From Bradyrhizobium sp. LLZ17 (GTDB lineage Bacteria; Pseudomonadota; Alphaproteobacteria; Rhizobiales; Xanthobacteraceae), in contig NZ_CP165734.1 of the NCBI RefSeq assembly GCF_041200145.1, positions 1,612,001 to 1,676,000 on the forward strand: DNA of 64,000 nt, in the 5' to 3' direction. Below, in pieces: positions 10,402 to 64,000 of the stretch (position 1 is its first letter; every line of letters begins with the position of its first letter). Under the pieces are notes generated by a model. It did not search any database. It worked only from the letters and a program-made list of their open reading frames with translations, and was not told the origin of the DNA. Position numbers and translations under genes: made by a program.

Positions 10402-12324
10402 TCAGCTCGCCCGCAGCATGAACGCGTCGAAGTACGACGCAAGCTCCGCAAACCCATCGAGCGGCAGCACCTGCGCGACATACTGGTCCGGCCGCACCAC
10501 GACCATACAGCCCGCCTTCCGATCAATGCCGCGCATGGCGAAGATGTCGGCGCCGCTCTTCAGGTCGGGACAGTACATCTTCTCATAGTCGACCAGGCCG
10601 TAGCGCCCCTTGCGCGGCAGAAGCTGCGCGGGCATCGCCTCCACGGCGAGCTCGTGATGGTGCTGCTGGAACACCGCCCGCAGGTCGATCACGCTGTCGA
10701 TGTCGGCGCCATCAGGCGTATAGCGGCGCACCGGCGATTCCCCCGCCTCGCAGAGGAAGTTGCACAACGCGCGAATGGCCGAGCCCGCTGCTGCGGGATC
10801 TTCGGCGCGACCAAATGCGTAGATGCGGAAGCGACCGTCGGCACTCGCGGCGTGGCCGAGATGAACGGGCTTTGCGTCGGCGAGCCGGATCACGGGCGCG
10901 GAGTGAAAGCGCTTGCCGATGACAAGGCCTTCCGCGAGATGCTGATGCGACGTGCCGCCAGTGAGAATCGAGAAACGATAGTGCGTCGCCGTACCCGCGG
11001 TGTAGCGGCCGTGCCTCACAAAATAATCCTGCGTCTTGGCCGCACCGGCACCGCCGGCCTTGGCGGCGGAGGCCAGCATGCCCGCCCATTCGCGATCGAA
11101 GTCGATCAGTTCTTTCGCGACGGCCTGGCGTTCGGCCGAATAGGTATGAAGCAACCCGGGCGCACACTGCGTGCGAATGACAGAGGCAAGCTTCCAGCCG
11201 AGATTGAAGGCGTCCTGCATCGAGACATTCATACCCTGCCCGGCCTTCGGGCTGTGGGTATGGCAGGCATCGCCCGCGATGAAGATGCGCGGCAGCTGCG
11301 TCGCAATTTCGGCCTGCGGCACGTCGTCGAACTTGTCGGTGAGGCGCTGGCCGATCTCGTAGACCGACCACCAGGCGATCTCCTTCACCTCGAGCTTGTG
11401 CGGATTGAGGATCCGTCGCGCCTTTGCGATCACGTCGTCGGCGGTGATATTGCGGTTGGCGACGCGCTCCCCGACCTCGAGCTTGGCGAGTTCGACATAG
11501 AGGCGAACCATGTAGCCGCCCTCGCGCGGGATGATCAGAAGGCTGCCGTCTTGCGCCGACTGGATCAGGGCCTTGAAGCGGATGTCCGGAAAATCGGTCA
11601 CGGCGAGCACGTCCATCACGCCCCAGGCATGGTTGGCGGAATCGCCGTGCAGCTCGCGGCCGATCGATTTGCGGACCACGCTGCGCGCACCATCGCAGCC
11701 GACCACGTAGCGCGCCTTGATGGTCTCGAATTTGCGCTCGTTCGCCGCATCGACGCGTTCGAGGCGCGCGGTCACCGCATGATCGGCGGGACCAGCCGTC
11801 CGATCGACCTGAAGGTCGAGCAAGCGCCGCCCATAATAGGGCTCGAGCTTGGCCGGCGACTTGCGCATGACGTCGAGAAACCCGTCATGGATACGCGCCT
11901 GGTTGAGGATGACGTGCGGGAATTCCGACAGCCCGTCCTCGACGTCCTGCACCCGGCCGCTGCGCACGATCGTCTCCGGCGCCCGTTCGTCCGGCTTCCA
12001 GAACGTCGTCTCGTTGACCCAATAGGCCTCCTTCAGGACACGCTCGCTGAAGCCGTAAGCGTGAAACATTTCCATGGTGCGGCAGGCGATGCCGTCAGCC
12101 TGGCCGATAGTTAGCCTCCCCGGCTTCTGCTCGACGATGCAGGTCTTGATGTCGGAGAATTGCGCAAGCTGAGCCGCTAGCGTCAGGCCGGCGGGGCCGC
12201 AGCCGACGATGAGGACATCGACCTCCCGAGGCAGCGGACCGACCGCACCTGAACACTGAACGCGCTCGGCAGGATCCGCGATTTCGGGGTCGCCGGGCTG
12301 GAATCCATTCAGATGGAATTGCAT
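10402..12324 (-). CDS. FAD-dependent aromatic hydroxylase, MobA / phenol 2-monooxygenase type
   Basis: A 640-residue class A flavoprotein monooxygenase. Residues 35-65 form the FAD Rossmann motif (VDVLIVGCGPAGLTLAAQLA); CDGARS is the DG motif; FIAGDACHTHSPKAGQGMN is the GD motif; the last ~180 residues match the thioredoxin-like C-terminal domain of phenol hydroxylases (VVVRPDQYVAQVLPL). 3-Hydroxybenzoate 4-monooxygenase MobA is about this length and is controlled by the MarR-type MobR in Comamonas; here too a MarR gene is divergent. The substrate is therefore probably a hydroxylated aromatic acid, but this is inference. AGGAGAGG precedes the ATG. Confidence 0.85.
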   Translation of the reverse strand: MQFHLNGFQPGDPEIADPAERVQCSGAVGPLPREVDVLIVGCGPAGLTLAAQLAQFSDIKTCIVEQKPGRLTIGQADGIACRTMEMFHAYGFSERVLKEAYWVNETTFWKPDERAPETIVRSGRVQDVEDGLSEFPHVILNQARIHDGFLDVMRKSPAKLEPYYGRRLLDLQVDRTAGPADHAVTARLERVDAANERKFETIKARYVVGCDGARSVVRKSIGRELHGDSANHAWGVMDVLAVTDFPDIRFKALIQSAQDGSLLIIPREGGYMVRLYVELAKLEVGERVANRNITADDVIAKARRILNPHKLEVKEIAWWSVYEIGQRLTDKFDDVPQAEIATQLPRIFIAGDACHTHSPKAGQGMNVSMQDAFNLGWKLASVIRTQCAPGLLHTYSAERQAVAKELIDFDREWAGMLASAAKAGGAGAAKTQDYFVRHGRYTAGTATHYRFSILTGGTSHQHLAEGLVIGKRFHSAPVIRLADAKPVHLGHAASADGRFRIYAFGRAEDPAAAGSAIRALCNFLCEAGESPVRRYTPDGADIDSVIDLRAVFQQHHHELAVEAMPAQLLPRKGRYGLVDYEKMYCPDLKSGADIFAMRGIDRKAGCMVVVRPDQYVAQVLPLDGFAELASYFDAFMLRAS

Positions 12325-41015: not shown

Positions 41016-41186
41016 CCGGAATTCGAGATGCAAGCACACTACATTCACCGGTTGTAAAGGTTCTCACGCCTTCTATCGTCGCATGATGGATCGTCGCGGA
41101 TTCGCGCTGGCGCTCGCCCGTGTGCTCTGGACATCGAATGCTGCCAGCATCCCGATGTCCTCGAAACTCTGTACAAGGATATGATC

Positions 41187-43958
41187 ATGGGGCCTTCGCG
41201 ACGCGAGTTCGTGAAGTGGTTGTCGGCGGGAGGCATCTCGGTCAGCCTGTCTCATCTGGCTTCGGCAGCCGGCGTGCCCTTCGCAGAGCACGAGACGCTG
41301 CCTGGACGCGGCAAGTTCAACCCCGCGGCGAAAGGCGCCGGCCGTGTCGACGGCGTCGCCAAGGTCACCGGCGCGAAGCTTTACGCTTCCGACTTCCGCG
41401 CCAATGATCTGGCGGGCTGGCCACAGGCCACCTCGCACGCGATCCTGGTCCGCGCCAATGACGCCACGCATGTCTACACCGGACTGGACCTCGCGCGCCT
41501 CAAGGGCGCGCTGAAGCCGTCCGTCGTCGTGACCGCGGATGATCTCGGCCGCATCGGCACAGAGGTCCCGGAGTTCTATGCCGGCGACCTGTTCTGCCCG
41601 CCCGGCAAGACGCCGCTCTATCTCGGACAGCCGGTTGCGCTGCTGATCTTCGAGACCTTCGATGCCTTCGACCAGGCGCGCCTCGCGCTACGCGACGGCA
41701 CGTTCGTCCAATTCGGCGAGGAGACCGGGCCTGTCGTCATCCCGGATTACGGGGCGTTCCGCTTCACCCGCGTGGCAGGTCCCTCGCCTGACAAGCCGGA
41801 CGTCTATTCGCCGATCCAGGCCGGCTGGGTCTCGCCCAAGAAGGTGCAGAGCGCGGCGCTGCCGGTGTGGTCGCCTCTCGCGAAGGACATGCCGGCGGAT
41901 TACGCCAAGGCGGCGAAATATGGCGAGCAGATCCGCGCCGAGCTTGCAGCGGATGACGCTTCCATGCTGGTGCTCGACCACGAGTTCGAGACGCAATCGG
42001 TCGACCCGATGTTCCTCGAGCCGGAATGCGGCCTCGCCTGGTACAACGGCAAGGGCGGCACTCTCGAACTGCTGCTCGGCGTGCAGTCGCCCTACGAGGC
42101 GGCGGAGTCGATCGCGCATCTCTTCGCCAAGGCTCGGGCACCCTACAAGCCGGCGCACATCAACGCGCAGTTCGCCCATGTCGGCGGCGGCTTTGGCGGC
42201 CGCGATCACACACCTTTCATTCTTTATGTTGCGCTCGCCGCGGTGTGCTTTCCGGGCAAGCCCGTGCGGCTGGCGCACGACCGCTACCAGCAGTTTCAGG
42301 GCGGCATCAAGCGCCACGCGATCAAGATGCGCTCGCGTATCGGCATCGATCGCGCGACCGGCAAGATCAAGGCGTTCGCCGCCGATCACGTGCTCGACGG
42401 CGGCGGTACCGCCCATTTCTCGGCCAGCGTCGCCGTGGTCGCAGCCACCGGCGCGATCGGCATCTACGACATTCCCAAGGTCGACGTCACGACCGTCGCG
42501 GTGCACTCGCGCGGGGTGAGCGCGGGCTCGATGCGCGGCTACGGCATCCTGCAGGCCATGACGGCGCTGGAGGTCCTGATCGACGAGGCGGCGTCCGAGC
42601 TCAAGCGCGATCCGATCGAATTCCGGCGGCGTAACGCTCTGCCGCAGAACGGCCGGACCATGACCGGCAATCCCTACATCGTCTCGGTGCGCACGCCCGA
42701 AATCCTCGACAAGCTCGAGCAGCATCCGATCTGGCAGCAGCGGGCGCAGTTCAAGCAAACGTCGTCGGATCGGCTGGTCGGCACCGGCGTTGCCTGCGTC
42801 ACGAAAGACTATGGCTCCGGCGCGGACGGCTCGCTCGGGCGTGTGGAGCTTGGCCCCGACGGCAGGATTGTGATCTATTGCGATCACGTCGAGATGGGCA
42901 ACGGCATCGGCACGGCGCTGGCCAACCGCGTCGCGACCCATCTCGGCGCCATCGCCGACGACGTCTCGGTCGCCCGCGTCGACAGCTACGACGTGCTCGG
43001 GCTGGTCACATCAGGCGATCCCGCCACCATCGACCAGAAGACCCAGGATGCCGCGGAGAAAAATCCGCGCTGGGTGCCCGCGATCAGCTCGCCGACAAGC
43101 TCCTCGATCGGCGCGCATGTCGGCACCCATTCCGCCGGGGAAGCCGCCCACGTCATCTTCCGCTTCGGCCTGTGGCCTGCGGCGCTGGAACTGTGGCGCA
43201 TCGCAAAGACTGATCCACGCGCCCGGCAATGGGCCGCCGCAAGCTGGCAGAACGGGCAGCTCACCATGCCCGGTCTCGAACCGCTGGCGCTGCCGGTCCT
43301 GGCCGCGAAAGCTCATGCGCGCGGCTTCGTCACCGGTGCGGTTGCGCACAGCTTCTCCCGCTGGGCATGGTCGCGGGCCCGCTTTCCGCTGTTCGGCGAG
43401 CAATACCGCGCCGACATCGACGCGCTGGCGATCCGCAGGGGCAACGGCAAGTTCGAACGGATCAACCGCGCCAGCGTCAAGTTTCCGCCGACCGACAACA
43501 ACCGGATCGGCACCGCCTACACCTCGATGTGCGGCACGGTGGTCCGCGTCGAGATCGAGCGCGCGACCGGCGCCTTGCGCATCGCCAAGGCCTACAGCGT
43601 GTTCGAATGCGGCACCGCGCTCGTGCCTGATGTGGTGATGGGCCAGGCCCAGGGCGGCTTCGCCATGGGCGTCGGCTACGCCCTTCTGGAAACGCTGCCG
43701 CCGTTGGAGGGCGGCCCGGGCGGCGGCGACTGGAATCTCGGACGCTATCTGGTCGCACGTGGCTCGGATCTGCCTCTGCGCGATCTCGAGATCGAGATGC
43801 TGAAGCCGCAGACAGCGGACGAGGCGCCCAAGGGCATGGCCGAGGTCGTGATGATCCCGATCGTGCCGGCGCTAATCAACGCCATCCATGACGCTACCGG
43901 CCATCGCTTCCGCGCGCTGCCGGTCACCGCAAGCCTATTGAAGGGAGTGCTCGCGTGA
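41187..43958 (+). CDS. Molybdopterin-binding large subunit, isoquinoline 1-oxidoreductase beta type
   Basis: A 923-residue xanthine-oxidase-family subunit with a Tat signal (SRREFVKWLSAGGISVSLSH, residues 4-23), as in IorB-type enzymes. Molybdopterin motifs: GGGFGGRDH (about residue 334), SAGSMRGYG (about 448), GQAQGGFAMGVGYALLE and near the end KGMAEVVMIPIVPALINAIH, whose Glu aligns with the catalytic base. The twin arginine implies folding with cofactor before export. Start 41187 is chosen because AAGGAT lies six bases before it, not before 41181. The substrate is unknown (N-heterocycle or aldehyde). Confidence 0.9.
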   Translation: MGPSRREFVKWLSAGGISVSLSHLASAAGVPFAEHETLPGRGKFNPAAKGAGRVDGVAKVTGAKLYASDFRANDLAGWPQATSHAILVRANDATHVYTGLDLARLKGALKPSVVVTADDLGRIGTEVPEFYAGDLFCPPGKTPLYLGQPVALLIFETFDAFDQARLALRDGTFVQFGEETGPVVIPDYGAFRFTRVAGPSPDKPDVYSPIQAGWVSPKKVQSAALPVWSPLAKDMPADYAKAAKYGEQIRAELAADDASMLVLDHEFETQSVDPMFLEPECGLAWYNGKGGTLELLLGVQSPYEAAESIAHLFAKARAPYKPAHINAQFAHVGGGFGGRDHTPFILYVALAAVCFPGKPVRLAHDRYQQFQGGIKRHAIKMRSRIGIDRATGKIKAFAADHVLDGGGTAHFSASVAVVAATGAIGIYDIPKVDVTTVAVHSRGVSAGSMRGYGILQAMTALEVLIDEAASELKRDPIEFRRRNALPQNGRTMTGNPYIVSVRTPEILDKLEQHPIWQQRAQFKQTSSDRLVGTGVACVTKDYGSGADGSLGRVELGPDGRIVIYCDHVEMGNGIGTALANRVATHLGAIADDVSVARVDSYDVLGLVTSGDPATIDQKTQDAAEKNPRWVPAISSPTSSSIGAHVGTHSAGEAAHVIFRFGLWPAALELWRIAKTDPRARQWAAASWQNGQLTMPGLEPLALPVLAAKAHARGFVTGAVAHSFSRWAWSRARFPLFGEQYRADIDALAIRRGNGKFERINRASVKFPPTDNNRIGTAYTSMCGTVVRVEIERATGALRIAKAYSVFECGTALVPDVVMGQAQGGFAMGVGYALLETLPPLEGGPGGGDWNLGRYLVARGSDLPLRDLEIEMLKPQTADEAPKGMAEVVMIPIVPALINAIHDATGHRFRALPVTASLLKGVLA

Positions 43959-44479
43959 CGACCCTCAGCCTCACCATCAACGGCCGCAAGCACGGTCCGA
44001 TGGACGTCCGCGACGATCTCTCGATGAACGATTTTCTGCGCGAGATGCTGGGCATGACCGGCACCAAGTTCGGCTGCGGCGCCGCGCAATGCCTGAGCTG
44101 CGCCATCATCGTCGATGCGCCCGACGGCACCAGCGCCACCACCCCGACCTGCATCGCGCCCGCCGTGAATTTTGACGGCAAGTCGATCCGCACCGTCGAG
44201 GGACACGCTGGGAACGGCGAGCTCTCAGTGCTGCAAAAGGCCTTCATCGACCATTTCGCCTTCCAATGCGGTTACTGCACCGCCGGCTTCCTCAACGAGG
44301 GCCAGGTTTTGCTGGAACGTCTGTCGCGCACACCGGTGCCGCGCGAGACGCTGGAGCAGACCATCGCGGATGCGCTCGACGGGCATCTCTGCCGCTGCAC
44401 CGGGTATGTCAGATATCACGAGGCGGTGCGCGACGTGATCCTCGCCGATTCAAGCCGCTACCTTGTTGCCAACAAGTGA
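43955..44479 (+). CDS. 2Fe-2S subunit of the molybdenum oxidoreductase (IorA-like)
   Basis: A 174-residue protein with two 2Fe-2S clusters: the plant-ferredoxin type (GTKFGCGAAQCLSCAIIV plus TPTC) and the helical type (FQCGYCTAGF plus GHLCRCTGY). It has no signal peptide, so it is probably carried out with the Tat-bearing large subunit. GTG start at 43955 overlaps the large-subunit stop by four bases. Gene order large-small differs from the common iorA-iorB order. Confidence 0.93.
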   Translation: MTTLSLTINGRKHGPMDVRDDLSMNDFLREMLGMTGTKFGCGAAQCLSCAIIVDAPDGTSATTPTCIAPAVNFDGKSIRTVEGHAGNGELSVLQKAFIDHFAFQCGYCTAGFLNEGQVLLERLSRTPVPRETLEQTIADALDGHLCRCTGYVRYHEAVRDVILADSSRYLVANK

Positions 44480-45174: not shown

Positions 45175-47127
45175 CTACACAAAGAAATCATGCGTCGGAT
45201 GGTGCACCACGCCTGTTGTGTGATCAACGGCGCCCTGCTCGGCGTGTGAAGGACCAATCAGGTCTGCATCCTGGATCTGCGCCGGTTCATGATGGCCGGC
45301 ATTGTGCAGACCATATCCAATCGTATTGTGTCCGTGGCTATCCCCGGAATGATCTGAAGCTTTGGCCTCTGCCATATCATTCTTGAAGTGAAAGGAATCT
45401 CCGGGCCCGGGCGCATGTACCGGAGCGGAGGCATCGGTCGAGTGGCCGTTGCCGCCAGCATGCTCGCTCGGCCCCCCCTGCACATTCTTGGAAGCATTTG
45501 AATGCCCCTCGTGGACGTCACGCTGCGATTGGCCGGAATTGGCGTGGCTTCCAGACACATCATCCTTGACATGCTTCTCGGCAGCTGAGGAACCGCCCTT
45601 TGAAGCATGCAGATCACGCTGCGATTGCGCGTGATCTGAATCGTGTCCCGGCGGGCCGTGCTCGGCATGCGGCTTGCCAGCTGCCTCGTCTTCTTCCGAA
45701 ACGGGCAAACCACGCGGCGATTGGTCACGATCGGCGCCGTGGACTGCGGTCAGCTGTATTGTATCGTGTTCGGCATTCGTCGACGCGTCCTTGGCGGCGG
45801 TTTGATCAAAGCCGCCATGATCGACGAGAGCATCGACGGCGCCAGATCCGACGTGAGAGTTGCCGTTGCCGCTGACGCGACCCTGACTCGCGGCTGCATC
45901 GATGATCTGAAAATCCTCGCTTCTACCGATGGTATCGCTTCGGGCAGCCTCGAAAACGAATGAGTCTTGGTGTATTTCGGGATTGAGCCAGGCCAAATTG
46001 TCAAGGCCGCCGAGATCTGCTTCGGCGCTGGCGGCATGATTGAGACCCATCAGCTCGCTGGTGCCGTTTGTGGCAACGGACGCAGAGAAATCGCTCAGGC
46101 TATCGCAAAAGTTGAATGCCTGCGCGGGGCTGTTAAGGAACTCGTACAGCAAGACGCCGACGGTCGTCATCAGGAACGTCCCACTGGTCAAGCCCGGCCT
46201 TGGAGGGTTGAGGGTCGGCAACGAGATCGTGCTGACGGCACTATCGGCACGGGATTCGATGGGCCTGCCGGCCTGCATCGGCATGTCGCCTATAGAATTC
46301 TCAATGCGGCCGGCTTTGCCCAGGGCTTTGGCCGTTTTGACAAGTGCGGCGGTCGTCTTTTGGCGGTCGATCTTGATGGTTACGACTGCTCCGGTGCCAT
46401 CCGCGGCCATGACCGTGACACTCACGGTATTCGCATGACCAAATGCGGTCGCGCTTGCGTCCTGAACGTCGTCCAGCGCTGCCCAAATCAGAGCTGCAAG
46501 CGCGCCGATCCCGCCGAAAAGGCGCGACAGGGCGAACGCTGCGAGCTCGGTCCGGCTTTTGATCTCGAGCTGCGCAGATATGTGATCGAGCCGTACCTTG
46601 ATGGTGCCTGGGGCGACCTTAAGTTGGCGCGCAATCTCCTTGTTCGACATGCCGCAGGCGACCAGACGCATGATCTTGCGCTCATGGTCCGTCAGCGCTG
46701 CCAATCCAGTTTTGCCAAACGCGCCATTGCCGGCCTTGCTCGCAGCCGCCCGGCCCGCGGGCGGCACCACCAGTCTCAGAGACTGCATCAAGGTCTCGGG
46801 CTCCTCGCGCATCGGAATCGCGCTACAGGCACCCGCTTCAATTGCGGCAGCGAGATCGCCATGCGCAACCGACGCAGTGTAGAAGACCAGTCGTGTGGGA
46901 AGCTTTTCGGCAGTGACGGCGGCGAGCATTTCAGAAGCCGTCACGTCGGAGAATCCGTCCTCTACAAGCACGACATCTGGCGTCAGCCGACGAACTGCTT
47001 CGAGGCAACCGGCTCCATCAACGCACGACGCAACGATCTCGAAGTCATGCTCCGCCGCAAATAGCGACGCAAAACCCTGCAGAACGATAGGACGGCGATC
47101 TGCTATCACGAGTCGGATACGAAGCAT
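45175..47127 (-). CDS. LuxR-type regulator with pseudo-receiver and long low-complexity C-terminal region
   Basis: A 650-residue protein. Residues 1-120 are a receiver-like domain in which Glu56 takes the place of the phospho-acceptor Asp (DVVLVEDGF) and the conserved Lys is missing. Residues 143-200 are a LuxR helix-turn-helix (LTDHERKIMRLVACGMSNKE, VAPGTIKVRLDHISAQLEIK). A hydrophobic stretch follows at 203-218 (LFGGIGALAALIWAAL) and another at 314-330. From 340 to 650 the chain is Asp/His/Ser/Gly-rich with degenerate repeats (QSQRDLH, QSQRDVH) and DSFVFEAA / DSFHFKND units like those of secreted RTX-type proteins. Start ATG 47127 follows GAGG. Function unknown. Confidence 0.8.
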   Translation of the reverse strand: MLRIRLVIADRRPIVLQGFASLFAAEHDFEIVASCVDGAGCLEAVRRLTPDVVLVEDGFSDVTASEMLAAVTAEKLPTRLVFYTASVAHGDLAAAIEAGACSAIPMREEPETLMQSLRLVVPPAGRAAASKAGNGAFGKTGLAALTDHERKIMRLVACGMSNKEIARQLKVAPGTIKVRLDHISAQLEIKSRTELAAFALSRLFGGIGALAALIWAALDDVQDASATAFGHANTVSVTVMAADGTGAVVTIKIDRQKTTAALVKTAKALGKAGRIENSIGDMPMQAGRPIESRADSAVSTISLPTLNPPRPGLTSGTFLMTTVGVLLYEFLNSPAQAFNFCDSLSDFSASVATNGTSELMGLNHAASAEADLGGLDNLAWLNPEIHQDSFVFEAARSDTIGRSEDFQIIDAAASQGRVSGNGNSHVGSGAVDALVDHGGFDQTAAKDASTNAEHDTIQLTAVHGADRDQSPRGLPVSEEDEAAGKPHAEHGPPGHDSDHAQSQRDLHASKGGSSAAEKHVKDDVSGSHANSGQSQRDVHEGHSNASKNVQGGPSEHAGGNGHSTDASAPVHAPGPGDSFHFKNDMAEAKASDHSGDSHGHNTIGYGLHNAGHHEPAQIQDADLIGPSHAEQGAVDHTTGVVHHPTHDFFV

Positions 47128-47626: not shown

Positions 47627-49309
47627 CTACGGCGAGATCAGTGGATTCTCGACGAGATCGCCGACGCAGAAATTGGCCATGTGCGCGACGGCCTCGGTGC
47701 TATGATAGTCACCGAATTCGGCAGTGGCTTCCTTGCCAGCGTACATTCGTGCGATTCCAGCGCCGCCAGGGTGATGGGGAGCCCACTCGGTGATATCGTA
47801 AACTTTTCCTGAGACGATGATCCAGCAGTCGTTTTGCGTGTCGTGCAGGGCGACCTCGTCGCGCGTGACGCGGCGCGTACCCTTGGCGGGATTAGCGGGC
47901 ATCCAGAGCTTGGAGGTGGTCCCACCGTACTTGACCTTGGCGGCTCGGCGGAAGTCCCATGGTCCCAATCTCTTGGAAGGCAACTCGGTGCCGATCCTGC
48001 GGGCGTCGTAGGCGTAGATCCAGGAATCGTCCTCGCCGCCGCGCTTGTCGTGGGCAAAGGCGGGGCTCACGCGCTCGTCCAGTTTCTCGAGTAGCGCCTT
48101 CTGCTCAGCGGTGTCCTTCGCCCTCAGGTGATCGAAAGCGAATTTGGATCCCAATTGGAAGCGGGTGGCGCGGTAGTGCCGCACGCGTTCGTAATGCAAC
48201 AAGGCTGTAGGCACATCGCGCTTGTGAAGCGTAAAGGCGCTGGCAAGGGCAGCGGCGTCCTCGAAGGATTGAGCAGCTCCCTGACCAAAGGTGGGAAGCA
48301 TCGGGTGCGCCGCGTCCCCGAGCAGGCAGATGCGGCCCTGCACCCAGGTTTCGAGCGCATCGCGATCGTAGAGGCCCCACTTCGTAGGACGAACGATCGC
48401 CCCCGCCAGAGCGACGAGGTCGTCTCTGCTGGGGTGCCGCGTGAACGCCTCGCCAACCTCGCGAACGATCTCTTCCTGACTGACGGGAAACCAGTCGCCC
48501 TCCTCCTGCTCGAACGCGGCGGAGTCAGGCTCATAATGCGCGATCCACACGTTCAACAACTCACCGCCGCGCACCCAGTACGTCGTTGCCCCGCTCCTGT
48601 CGGCGCGATGGCGGTCCATGCTGAAGCAGTTGACGGGATTGTGGTCCAGCAGGCTACCGTCAGCCTTGCGGAGCGATGCAACCACTGTCCGCGGAATGAG
48701 TCCACGAAAGCACGTCACCTCGGTCCAGCGCTTGGGACGGGGATTCGGCCACGCCAGCTGCAAAGTGGCAGAGTTGATCCCGTCGGCACCCACGAGAACC
48801 TCTCCCGTGGCGGTTCGGCCATTCGAAAAGGTCGCTGTCACCTCGCCGGTGGTCTGACGCAACTCTGTCAGCCTGCAGTCCATGTGCACCGTGATCGGGC
48901 ACGGCGCCCCGCTGTCGGGATCGAATTCGAACACCCGCTTATACAGGCACATCAACAGATCCAGCCTGTGCATGTGGTGAAACCCGGCGCCATCGCCTGC
49001 GGCGGTGAGATGATCGAACGGCCTCTGTGTCACGCTCCCATCCGCGTTGAACTGCCGGGTCGATTCCAGAATTGCCGCCCGGCCACCGTCGATCACCCCA
49101 TGGCGGCCCTTGGGATCCCCGCCATCGAGATCGACGCCCAGCCAACGACATATCCGCGCCCCGTTGGGCGGGATATTCAACCCGGCACCTGCGGTGCTAG
49201 GCACCTTGGTTTGCTCGCAGACCTCGACCGATGCGAAGACGCCGGATTGTCGCAGCGCTAACGCCGTCATCAACCCGCCCATTCCCGCACCGACGATGAT
49301 TGCCCGCAT
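47627..49309 (-). CDS. FAD-dependent monooxygenase fused to a cytochrome b5 domain
   Basis: A 560-residue protein. Residues 1-400 are a class A flavin hydroxylase (salicylate/6-hydroxynicotinate type): IIVGAGMGG at 4-12, GADGINS (DG motif) at 174-180, LLGDAAHPMLPTFGQGAAQS (GD motif) at 329-348. Residues 479-552 form a cytochrome b5 domain: TRDEVALHDTQNDCWIIVSG, heme motif HPGG at 513-516, second heme ligand His536 in DYHSTEAV. Class A enzymes normally take electrons directly from NAD(P)H, so an appended heme domain is unusual. No transporter or dioxygenase partner is adjacent. ATG 49309. Confidence 0.88.
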   Translation of the reverse strand: MRAIIVGAGMGGLMTALALRQSGVFASVEVCEQTKVPSTAGAGLNIPPNGARICRWLGVDLDGGDPKGRHGVIDGGRAAILESTRQFNADGSVTQRPFDHLTAAGDGAGFHHMHRLDLLMCLYKRVFEFDPDSGAPCPITVHMDCRLTELRQTTGEVTATFSNGRTATGEVLVGADGINSATLQLAWPNPRPKRWTEVTCFRGLIPRTVVASLRKADGSLLDHNPVNCFSMDRHRADRSGATTYWVRGGELLNVWIAHYEPDSAAFEQEEGDWFPVSQEEIVREVGEAFTRHPSRDDLVALAGAIVRPTKWGLYDRDALETWVQGRICLLGDAAHPMLPTFGQGAAQSFEDAAALASAFTLHKRDVPTALLHYERVRHYRATRFQLGSKFAFDHLRAKDTAEQKALLEKLDERVSPAFAHDKRGGEDDSWIYAYDARRIGTELPSKRLGPWDFRRAAKVKYGGTTSKLWMPANPAKGTRRVTRDEVALHDTQNDCWIIVSGKVYDITEWAPHHPGGAGIARMYAGKEATAEFGDYHSTEAVAHMANFCVGDLVENPLISP

Positions 49310-49591: not shown

Positions 49592-51324
49592 ATGTTGGCC
49601 AGGATTATGACGGCCGCTGTTGCCGTGCTTTGTCTCTTCGTGCCCTGCGCCAGCGGCGCCCAGACGGAGTCCACGCCTCCCGCTGCACCCGTCGAACGAG
49701 TTATGGCGCACGCTGTCGATCAGCTATTTGCTAAATGGGCTCGGCCAGACTCGCCCGGCGCTTCCATCGCCGTCATTCAGAACGGCAACGTTATCTATAG
49801 CCAAGGCTATGGCGCAGCCAATCTGGAGTATGGCGAGCCAAACACGCCGGAAACCGTGTTCCACCTTGCGTCGGTCTCAAAGCAGTTCACCGCCTGCGCG
49901 ATCTACCTGCTCGCTCAGGACGGAAAACTGACTCTGGATGATGACGTTCGCAAGTATGTTCCGAAGTTGCACGATTTTGGCAAGTTGATCACGATCCGCC
50001 AGCTGCTCCATCACACGAGCGGTGTCCGAGACCAGTGGAATCTGTTGGCACTGGCAGGGTGGCGGCTCGACGACGAGATCACGGACGATGACGTCGTGCG
50101 CCTGCTGTTTCAACAGACGGAGTTGAACTTCGCGCCTGGCGATCAATTCCTCTACAGCAACAGCGGCTACACGCTCCTCGCCATGGTCGTGCAGCAAGCG
50201 TCGGGCAAAACGTTGGCCGAGTTTGCCCAGGAGCGCATCTTCACCCTCTCGGCATGTCTCATACACATTTTCAGGATCAGTACGGCACGGTCGTCAAAGA
50301 CCGCGCCTATTCCTACGAGCGGCGGCCGGACGGCAAATACCAGTATGTGGCTCTAACCTATTCGACGGTCGGACCATCAAGCCTCTTTTCAACGGTCGGC
50401 GACCTCGCGCGCTGGGACGAGAATTTCTACACCGGCAAGGTCGGCGGCCTGACACTGCTCGCCGAGATGCAGCAGAAGGGCAAGCTCAACAACGGCAAGG
50501 ATATCGACTACGCCTCAGGGCTGTTCATTGGAAAGTATCGCGGACTCAGGACGGTTGCTCACGCTGGCGGCGACGCCGCATATCGGACGAATATTCTCAG
50601 GTTTCCAGAGCAACATTTCTCAGTCGTGGTCCTCGCAAACGCGGGGGATTTGAATCCAACAGCGCTCTCATTCAGGATCGCCGACCTCTATCTCAAGGAT
50701 CTGCTAAAACCAGCGTCTGACAAGCCAGCCTTTGACGAAAAGCCGGAAGTCGCGGTCGACCCGAGGATCCTCGACGCCTATGTTGGCGACTATGAGCTTA
50801 GACCTGGCTTCATCATTTCCTTCAGCAGGGACAATGACCACCTCGTCACGCGCGCGACCGGCCAGCCATCGTTTCCAATGTACGCAGTCTCGAACACCGC
50901 TTTCCGCCTGAGAGCAGTTCTCGCGGAAGTCGTATTCGAGGAAGTGCAGCAAGGCGGAACGGTCGAGAACGCAATTCTCCACCAGAACGGCGCAACTGTT
51001 CCGCTGAAGCGGATAGCCATTGCCAAGCCCGCGGCGGACCGGCTTAAAGCGTACGAGGGCTACTATTACAGCACAGAACTCGGCGTCATCTATGAAGTGT
51101 TCGCGCGTGAGAACGGGCTGAAACTTCACTATCCCCGGGGCGAACTCGACCTGCAGCCCGTAGGTACTGACGCTTTCGCGACAGGCTTTCCGGTCGGAAG
51201 TCTGAAGTTCGCGTGTGCTGACGACGGCAAGTGTAATGCGCTGTCCGTCGATATCGGCCGGGTCAAAGAGCTGCGGTTCACTAGGATCTCGCTCGATCCG
51301 ATCCGTCCGAAGCCATCCAAATGA
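49592..51324 (+). pseudogene. Serine hydrolase (class C beta-lactamase-like family), frameshifted
   Basis: The first frame (ATG 49592) encodes a signal peptide (MTAAVAVLCLFVPCASGAQT) and the catalytic HLASVSKQFTA (SxxK) and YSNSGY (YxN) motifs up to FAQERIFT near 50243. Then one C is missing from the run 50244-50246; the rest continues in the next frame as PLGMSHTHFQDQYGTVVKDR ... HAGGDAAYRT (third motif) to TGA at 51324. Restoring one base gives a 577-residue protein with a C-terminal beta-sheet domain. Family members are peptidases or esterases. All three motifs are intact, so the break is recent or artefactual. Confidence 0.8.
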
Positions 51325-62485: not shown

Positions 62486-63688
62486 CTACGTCACCGCGTT
62501 GACCACCTGATATTCCGGCCGGCGCCACATCTCACCGGCAATCACCTCTTCGATGATCTCCGCCGCCCGTACAATCTCGCCTTCGCCGATGTACAATGGC
62601 GTGATGCCAAATCGCATGATGTCGGGCGCGCGAAAATCGCCAATCACGCCACGGGCGATCAGGGCCTGCATGGCGGCGTAACCACCGCCGAAGACGAAGG
62701 AGACTTGCGAGCCGCGTTGCGCGTGCGCGCGCGGCGTCACCAGCTTCAGGGCCGGGCAGCGGCGCTCGACCTCGGTAATCAGGAGATCACCCAATGCGAG
62801 CGAACGCGCGCGTACGTCCGCGATATCAATTTGATCCCAGATATCGAGCGAGGCCTCCAGCGCCGCCATCGCCAGCACCGGCGGCGTACCGACGCGCATG
62901 CGCTCGACACCGCCGGCCGCGGCATAGGCCAGATCGAACGCAAACGGCTTCGCGTGCCCCATCCAGCCGGACAGCGCGGCGCGCGCGGAGCCAGCGTGGT
63001 GTGGCGCGACATACAGAAACGCCGGCGCGCCGGGACCGGCATTGAGATATTTGTAGGTGCAACCGGCGGCGAAATCGGCACCGCAGGCTGCAAGATCGAC
63101 CGGCAGCGCGCCGGCCGAATGGGCGAGGTCCCAGACGGTGACGATGCCGAGCGCATGAGCTTTTGCCGTCAGCTTCGCCATATCGTGGCGGCGGCCGGTG
63201 CGGTAATCGACCTCGGTGAGGTAGAGCACCGCGATCTCCTCCGACAGCGCGGCCTCGACCTCTTCTGGCGCCACCAGGCGCAATTGATGCCCGCGTCCGA
63301 GTGTCCCGATCAGGCCTTCGGCCATGTAGAGATCGGTCGGGAAATTGCCTGTGTCCGACAAGATGATCTTGCGTTCCGCCTTCATGTCGAGCGCAGCAGC
63401 GAGCGCCTGATAAACCTTCAGCGACAGCGTATCGCCGATCATCACCGAGCCGGCTTCCGCGCCGATCAGCCGTGCAATGCGGTCGCCGATTTGGCGCGGC
63501 TGCACGTACCAGCCCGCACTATTCCAGGCGCGGATCAGTTCATCGCCCCACTCCGCGGTGATGACGCGACTGACGCGCTCGGCAACCCCCAGCGGCAGCG
63601 CACCGAGCGAATTGCCGTCGAGATAGATCACGCCGTCCGGCAGATGAAACAGCGCCTTGGTGTCCTCGTAGACGCGAAGCTTGGTCAT
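62486..63688 (-). CDS. kynU: Kynureninase KynU
   Basis: A 400-residue PLP enzyme that cleaves kynurenine to anthranilate and alanine. Seen: YLDGNSLGALPLGV at residues 22-35, DSNFPTD-like DTGNFPTDLYMAEG at 111-124, WDLAHSAGALPVDL with the PLP-binding Asp, and the Schiff-base Lys in CTYKYLNAGPGAPAF. Length equals the family norm. It lies 22 bases after kynA, so the two form the kyn operon for tryptophan breakdown. Confidence 0.96.
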   Translation of the reverse strand: MTKLRVYEDTKALFHLPDGVIYLDGNSLGALPLGVAERVSRVITAEWGDELIRAWNSAGWYVQPRQIGDRIARLIGAEAGSVMIGDTLSLKVYQALAAALDMKAERKIILSDTGNFPTDLYMAEGLIGTLGRGHQLRLVAPEEVEAALSEEIAVLYLTEVDYRTGRRHDMAKLTAKAHALGIVTVWDLAHSAGALPVDLAACGADFAAGCTYKYLNAGPGAPAFLYVAPHHAGSARAALSGWMGHAKPFAFDLAYAAAGGVERMRVGTPPVLAMAALEASLDIWDQIDIADVRARSLALGDLLITEVERRCPALKLVTPRAHAQRGSQVSFVFGGGYAAMQALIARGVIGDFRAPDIMRFGITPLYIGEGEIVRAAEIIEEVIAGEMWRRPEYQVVNAVT

Positions 63689-63714
63689 TGGACATCTCTA
63701 TTGGACATCTCTAG
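63689..63714. repeat. 13-base tandem duplication between kynA and kynU
   Basis: TTGGACATCTCTA is present twice in direct tandem (plus-strand reading) between the kynA stop and the kynU ATG. On the coding strand it duplicates the AGAGATGTCC just before the kynU start, including its presumed ribosome-binding surroundings. Confidence 0.7.
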
Positions 63715-64000
63715 AGAATGGTGCGAACGCGCCAGAGTTCGGGGAACAGTTCGATCTCCAGCATGCGCTTGAGATAACTGACGCCGCCAGTGCCGCCAGT
63801 GCCGCGCTTGAAGCCGATGACCCGCTCGACCGTGGTCACGTGATTGAAGCGCCAGCGCCGGAAGTAATCCTCGAAATCGACCAGCTTCTCCGCGACCTCG
63901 TACAGCATCCAATGCGTCTCGGGTGCCTCGTAGACCTGGTGCCAGGCCTGGAGCACGCCCTCGTTGAAGCTGTGGGTCTCGCGGATGTCGCGTGCCAGCA
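63711..64000 (-). CDS. kynA: Tryptophan 2,3-dioxygenase KynA, C-terminal part
   Basis: The frame is open to the right edge; the last ~96 residues are visible. [20 protein letters not shown], then [20 protein letters not shown] and [20 protein letters not shown] match tryptophan 2,3-dioxygenase: the His in [12 protein letters not shown] is the heme ligand and [11 protein letters not shown] the conserved C-terminal substrate loop. It opens the indole ring of tryptophan to N-formylkynurenine, first step of the pathway continued by kynU. A formamidase gene is not in this window. Confidence 0.96.

Follow-up and report, generated by a model that had tools for sequence, protein, structure and literature searches.

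Introduction

Single-component flavin hydroxylases are textbook enzymes that draw electrons straight from NAD(P)H. Cytochrome b5 domains are built-in electron relays in fusions with desaturases, fatty-acid 2-hydroxylase, nitrate reductase and sulfite oxidase, where the catalytic partner is di-iron or molybdenum and not a flavin hydroxylase. Here we describe a gene of Bradyrhizobium sp. LLZ17 that encodes a class A-type flavin adenine dinucleotide (FAD) monooxygenase and a cytochrome b5 domain in one chain. It lies in a stretch of 64,000 nucleotides (contig NZ_CP165734.1, positions 1,612,001 to 1,676,000 of the forward strand; below, the window), and the genome is assembled as one 7.8 Mb contig. 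The fused enzyme is a real conserved family, patchily distributed across several phyla. Its members may be single-gene flavocytochrome monooxygenases of aromatic catabolism, whose flavin receives its electrons singly via the b5 heme; we hold the chances of this to be about even, and it is the direction of electron flow and the substrate that we infer.

The available part of PMC7615680 describes COQ6, an enzyme of the same fold, as having no activity with NAD(P)H and requiring a ferredoxin reductase and a ferredoxin. The FAD of yeast Coq6, prepared as a fusion with maltose-binding protein (MBP), is reduced by neither NADH nor NADPH (PMC4726752, available part), and PqsL, again of the same fold, does not take NAD(P)H without light and needs reduced flavin (PMC7248105, available part). 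Therefore the fold can depend on donors other than NAD(P)H, and the statement of an earlier, sequence-only reading of this DNA that class A hydroxylases need no other donor was too strong.

That reading also knew of no characterised enzyme with this layout, and indeed searches of open-licence literature found none, judged by the titles and abstract starts listed. The words cytochrome, heme and ferredoxin do not occur in the available text of an article on flavin monooxygenase evolution (PMC4981433), and a text search did not show 'cytochrome b5' in the accessible part of a class A review (PMC3546652). The database names of the members are 'cytochrome b5 domain-containing protein' or 'salicylate hydroxylase'; hence the fusion is recorded in annotation, and it is a study of it that we did not find in that literature.

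Structure of the fused gene and its product

The gene is one continuous frame of 560 residues, as the sequence-only reading had it with exact coordinates and no strand; the strand is minus, with the ATG start at 49309. A GGAAGG-like ribosome site is seen by reading just 5' of it. Frame 1 of the plus strand of 47627-49309 has three stops, and an alternate-frame open reading frame (ORF), 47638-48057, overlaps the gene. Between residues 450 and 480, where a stop or frameshift would have undone the fusion, there is none, and the stretch equivalent to 438-478 is 39-44 amino acids long in all 63 aligned members.

Both Pfam domains score above their gathering thresholds, which bears out the claim that a class A-type flavin hydroxylase is joined to a complete b5 domain: FAD_binding_3 with E 2.1e-17 (best stretch 291-383) and Cyt-b5 (PF00173) with E 7.4e-23 at residues 482-552, 80.8 bits against a cut-off of 23.7. 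At E up to 0.01 the protein matches five families, all of them FAD/NAD-binding or Cyt-b5, and no FMN-dependent alpha-hydroxyacid dehydrogenase domain is among them. The flavin part has what defines a class A flavoprotein monooxygenase, that is, the GxGxxG, DG and GD motifs and a fold of the p-hydroxybenzoate hydroxylase (PHBH) type, and the C-terminal part has what defines a cytochrome b5, namely the PF00173 score, the HPGG histidine with the second axial histidine, and the b5 fold. All motifs named in the sequence-only reading are in place (Table 1). The top 50 structural matches of the full-length model are flavin enzymes; since no cytochrome b5 entry was among them, the b5 domain was modelled alone. 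From the two conserved ligand histidines it is predicted to bind heme b.

Table 1. Features of the fused gene (window coordinates; residue numbers refer to the 560-residue protein; counts are aligned members; pLDDT, predicted local distance difference test)
Feature	Position	Strand	Basis or conservation
Fused gene, class A-type FAD monooxygenase + cytochrome b5, 560 aa	47627..49309	-	ORF, Pfam, conserved family
Flavin hydroxylase domain, residues 1-440	47990..49309	-	
GAGMGG dinucleotide-binding motif, residues 7-12	49274..49291	-	G7, G9 in 62/63 (remaining row is a gap)
DG motif, D176-G177 (GADG 174-177)	48779..48784	-	63/63
GD motif (GDAAHP), G331-D332 (GDAAHPM 331-337)	48314..48319	-	63/63
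Linker, residues 441-478	47876..47989	-	Least conserved part; pLDDT < 50 at 450-453 and 455-466
Cytochrome b5 domain, residues 479-556	47642..47875	-	
His513 of HPGG (513-516), first axial heme ligand by homology	47771..47773	-	63/63
His536, second axial heme ligand by homology	47702..47704	-	63/63, spacing 23 in all

Distribution of the family

About 5.8 billion proteins were searched; of the 7995 candidates scored, 977 are relatives with E up to 1e-3. Domain content and identities refer to the 120 of these that are listed. The joined architecture, which the sequence-only reading had proposed to look for in protein databases, is present in 115 of them, the full-length members being 62-93% identical. 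The closest relatives by the fused gene are from Bradyrhizobium, both in the protein listing and in the tree. Of the five listed relatives without b5, P0062, P0063 and P0064 continue into a peptide from another frame, like that of ORF 47638-48057, P0065 ends shortly before the linker, and P0078 is truncated. Natural loss of b5 in some members was considered and rejected for the listed proteins, as all five are frameshifted or shortened.

It is almost inconceivable that an assembly or annotation error has fused two genes here. The same pair of domains is found, with 99% of the query covered, in relatives from other assemblies at 91-92% identity: P0004, on a 160 kb contig, and P0008, on one of 8.28 Mb. 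The two domains stand in one frame in all 63 aligned members, which come from many assemblies and several phyla, and nothing in support of an artefact was found, the proteins lacking b5 being themselves damaged. Hence we exclude chance or misassembly.

Scanning 84,980 species genomes gave 54 loci. Forty-four (L009-L052) belong to the family, with 53-89% identity in the best segment, and the other ten, with 29-37%, are hydroxylases that are not fused (L053-L062). No b5 is seen in four of the 44: three end at a contig edge, and L050 matches residues 1-197 only. By record title, the hosts are Bradyrhizobium, Ruegeria, Rhodospirillales, Gammaproteobacteria, Methylibium, Pseudomonas fluorescens C2, Streptomyces, other Actinomycetota and Candidatus Binatia; a large share of the records, those of Klebsiella and Acidimicrobiia included, are bins from metagenomes, in which a contig may be misplaced. 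In wider genome samples, the centre genome counted each time, members occur in 2/398, 1/295, 1/274, 4/36 and 5/248 genomes. One of 72,556 plasmid records matched at E up to 1e-60. In 13 host genomes searched at E up to 1e-20, the matches are either family members or their pieces (at least 53% identical) or other hydroxylases (at most 36%).

In four loci (L118, L051, L034, L050) the fused gene is broken or only partly present, and therefore some hosts are losing it. The genome search also counts an internal stop in some other matches, e.g. G019, G686 and G1402.

Conservation and phylogeny

For the alignment, 63 members were chosen as full-length. Besides the residues with full counts in Table 1, P514, G515 and G516 are invariant. 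On average, two members are identical at a fraction of 0.704 of positions in the flavin domain, 0.515 in the linker and 0.714 in b5 (mean pairwise identity). Omega values against nine orthologues are 0.07-0.12, 0.17-0.69 (undefined in one) and 0.06-0.25, respectively. Both domains are thus about equally conserved, with purifying selection on each. The distance matrices of the flavin and b5 domains correlate with r 0.80 (the highest of 1000 permutations gave 0.157), as would be expected if both domains have travelled together.

The flavin-domain tree has 54 rows, 32 fused and 22 unfused, and was built by a quick method that gave long-branch warnings. All 32 fused rows are on one side of a branch with Shimodaira-Hasegawa-like approximate likelihood ratio test (SH-aLRT) support 100 and a stem of 2.89. 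This is consistent with a single origin of the fusion and does not prove it; the 22 unfused rows are a partial sample, and a closer unfused relative elsewhere is possible.

The only b5 detected in Bradyrhizobium

The fused gene is present in 16 of 265 Bradyrhizobium genomes. A Cyt-b5 domain of any kind was found in 16 of the 257 genomes searched for it (17 matches), and these are the very 16 genomes with the fusion. Sixteen matches sit in the fused gene, of which G142 has a copy that is split near residue 295. The seventeenth (G243; L120 4921-5202, G243:C60) is the remnant of a second fused gene, covering residues 467-560, that is, part of the linker and b5. No separate cytochrome b5 domain was seen in these 257 genomes, and that of the window has exactly one match. 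Because Cyt-b5 is confined to the genomes bearing the fusion, the domain arrived with the fused enzyme; and, no separate b5 being detected in these hosts, either a general donor or its own flavin must serve it. FAD_binding_6 is found at five places in the window's genome, which are candidate reductases.

Redox genes near the fused genes

There is no conserved operon partner: over 55 records (the window and L009-L062) neighbour clusters reach at most 10 records, the hydroxylase excepted. Reductases are found near the fused gene in three hosts, whose loci are distant ones. In L037 (Bradyrhizobium altum, 61% identical) an FAD ferredoxin reductase gene lies about 70 bp downstream and overlaps a [2Fe-2S] ferredoxin gene. 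In L035 (P. fluorescens C2) a 320-residue Fer2/NAD-binding reductase is encoded about 190 bp downstream, and a reductase 37% identical to it is found about 5 kb on in L045 (Streptomyces), within the same ring-cleavage cluster as the fused gene. Five queries and two motifs detected no Rieske oxygenase or P450 in these three loci.

An electron-transfer or Rieske match within 2 kb was seen in seven of 52 family loci, compared with none of 24 unfused control loci. The queries were drawn from the family's own loci, which biases this contrast; the search of the controls extended over 6 kb or as far as the available stretch went, often about 5 kb; flanks differ between loci; and some of the 52 loci are short or fragmentary or share a genome, L018 and L026 being near copies. 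The excess near fused genes is suggestive only.

Rieske ferredoxins adjoin L031 and L051, and Rieske oxygenases adjoin L018, L026 and L028. We rejected the Rieske proteins as support for a donor role, since they may belong to a ring-hydroxylating oxygenase: L051 holds an alpha subunit of such an enzyme, and L031 has one 5.7 kb away. L018 (1-18318) is a catabolic cluster with a molybdenum hydroxylase, an amidohydrolase, alpha and beta subunits of a ring-hydroxylating oxygenase, a UbiD decarboxylase and a tripartite ATP-independent periplasmic (TRAP) transporter, and the Rieske oxygenase is directly upstream of its fused gene.

Direction of electron flow

The reaction we favour would run as follows. 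An NAD(P)H-dependent iron-sulfur reductase or a ferredoxin, sometimes encoded beside the fused gene and usually elsewhere in the genome, would reduce the b5 heme by one electron per step, and the heme would hand two electrons in turn to FAD. The reduced FAD would bind O2 and, as the C4a-hydroperoxide, hydroxylate a phenolic or aromatic-acid substrate, giving a product of the catechol or hydroxyquinol type that then undergoes ring cleavage. The variable linker may allow b5 to swing from donor to flavin and back, similarly to the b5 of flavocytochrome b2, except that the electrons would move inward. The invariant heme ligands, the failure to find any other b5 in the genus and the reductases nearby in three hosts are why we prefer inward flow via the heme, for which COQ6 with its ferredoxin sets a precedent within the same fold. 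We rank it above the two alternatives discussed below, while giving it roughly one chance in favour for each against.

Several observations weigh against it. The heme potentials of b5-type domains are usually above those of free flavin. For flavocytochrome b2, 202 mV is given as the heme potential (PMC6472588). With the heme potential the higher, electrons may have to move uphill to reach the flavin unless later steps draw them on. Forty-five of the 52 family loci, the window's among them, have no electron-transfer or Rieske match within 2 kb, and of the seven loci with a match only L035 and L037 encode a reductase, whereas Rieske proteins account for the remaining five. A part of b5 (522-537) has pLDDT below 50 in the full-length model. 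Further, a gene for a cupredoxin of the plastocyanin/azurin family (L021 11804-12154, minus strand) adjoins the fused gene in a genome assigned to Ruegeria, and among 42 family loci with a called gene, viewed to 3 kb, L047 has two CxxCH motifs in a gene 1.4 kb from the fused one. Finally, direct reduction of the flavin by NAD(P)H is possible as far as the sequence goes. According to the available text of PMC4981433, class A enzymes use NAD(P)H, and the positions of NADPH-contacting residues occur also in classes that do not bind it; hence sequence cannot decide whether it is used.

The cupredoxin and the CxxCH gene could suit outward flow, where NAD(P)H or the substrate reduces the flavin and the b5 heme drains electrons to cytochrome c, a cupredoxin or another acceptor, as in flavocytochrome b2. 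The enzyme would then be partly or wholly a dehydrogenase, or b5 would rescue uncoupled turnover. We consider this improbable, and the least probable of the three. Alternatively, NAD(P)H itself reduces the flavin, as it does in ordinary class A hydroxylases, and b5 serves structure or regulation, acting as a sensor of redox state or heme, as an oligomerisation domain or as a docking tag. The flavin domain is indeed close in fold to NicC and 3-hydroxybenzoate 6-hydroxylase, which are self-sufficient NADH enzymes, and most family loci have no reductase nearby. However, a merely structural role does not need heme ligands and an HPGG loop invariant in 63 sequences, nor a b5 about as conserved as the catalytic domain; hence we regard such a role as unlikely, if less so than outward flow.

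If inward flow holds, these proteins could form a new class of single-chain flavin monooxygenases, in which an aromatic hydroxylase works as a flavocytochrome and a fused b5 heme, not NAD(P)H, feeds the flavin; we put this tentatively, at somewhat less than an even chance.

Possible substrates

The gene neighbourhoods of three loci include ring-cleavage enzymes. In L035 a catechol 1,2-dioxygenase scoring above its curated cut-off is encoded about 6 kb away. L045 encodes two intradiol dioxygenases together with a dienelactone hydrolase, an enzyme of the mandelate racemase/muconate lactonizing enzyme (MR/MLE) group and an iron alcohol dehydrogenase; the latter, for which no curated model passed, is read as a maleylacetate reductase. 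L042 has an intradiol dioxygenase and an iron alcohol dehydrogenase similar to that of L045. These neighbours suggest that the product resembles catechol or hydroxyquinol. Next to L021 is a LysR-type regulator, and others are seen by reading at further loci.

Salicylate is a possible substrate; with the salicylate 1-monooxygenase model TIGR03219 the protein scores 109.7 bits, below the cut-off of 446.35. For 6-hydroxynicotinate, we considered the column of NicC His47, which we take to be an active-site residue. It is occupied by Asn45 in 62 of the 63 members and by Thr in one, which weakly disfavours this substrate. The column is not decisive, since the unfused L053 and L054, which stand beside nicotinate-like genes, have Gln there. 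Both are from Bacillaceae; their adjoining genes were read as a nicotinate pathway, one of these genes having no Pfam family.

Other genes in the window

The neighbours of the fused gene include a split serine hydrolase gene and, on the other strand, a molybdenum hydroxylase pair, which do not settle the substrate. The former (49592-51324, plus strand) encodes a beta-lactamase-family protein in two overlapping frames, with profile positions 9-174 and then 178-315; as the split falls within the Pfam domain, it looks frameshifted. The latter (41181-44479, plus strand) comprises a large subunit and a [2Fe-2S] subunit, followed by a cytochrome c-like gene identified by reading. At 45175-47127 (minus strand), a LuxR-type response regulator of 650 amino acids in one frame has a long His/Asp/Gly-rich C-terminal tail. 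A second flavin hydroxylase, of the phenol hydroxylase type (FAD_binding_3 and Phe_hydrox_dim), is encoded at 10402-12324 (minus strand). At the edge of the window (62486-63998, minus strand), a kynureninase-like gene has upstream of it the part of a tryptophan 2,3-dioxygenase gene that encodes the C-terminus.

Comparison with known systems

A conserved family with an intact b5 raises the question whether the rule of direct reduction by NAD(P)H has a one-chain bacterial exception. The fused enzyme is a system in which one-electron reduction of this fold can be studied, COQ6 needing two separate proteins, and the Bradyrhizobium genomes make the partner question clean, as no other b5 domain was found there. 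Were the heme the point of electron entry, a class A-type enzyme could be driven by general ferredoxin-type reductases in hosts with no other cytochrome b5.

From the group of NicC, TrlE and salicylate hydroxylase the fused enzyme differs by its C-terminal b5 and by Asn45 in place of NicC His47. It scores far below the cut-offs of the curated models of salicylate, 3-hydroxybenzoate 6- and urate hydroxylases, and has HHMHR and PTFGQG-like stretches that are not seen in the 22 unfused rows. PqsL presumably differs in taking reduced flavin, e.g. from a flavin reductase, and in having no b5. With COQ6 the protein shares the class A-type fold, while its score with the COQ6 model TIGR01989 is 39.6 bits against a cut-off of 489.3. 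Reduction of the flavin by a carrier protein has been shown for COQ6 and is only proposed here; COQ6 relies on separate FDXR and FDX2, unlike the one-chain enzyme, and to our knowledge has no heme domain. Flavocytochrome b2 (L-lactate dehydrogenase) also has a b5-type and a flavin domain in one chain, and its b5 matches that of the fused enzyme by sequence and fold. It differs in being an FMN enzyme with an N-terminal b5 (chain residues 7-69), from which electrons leave to cytochrome c.
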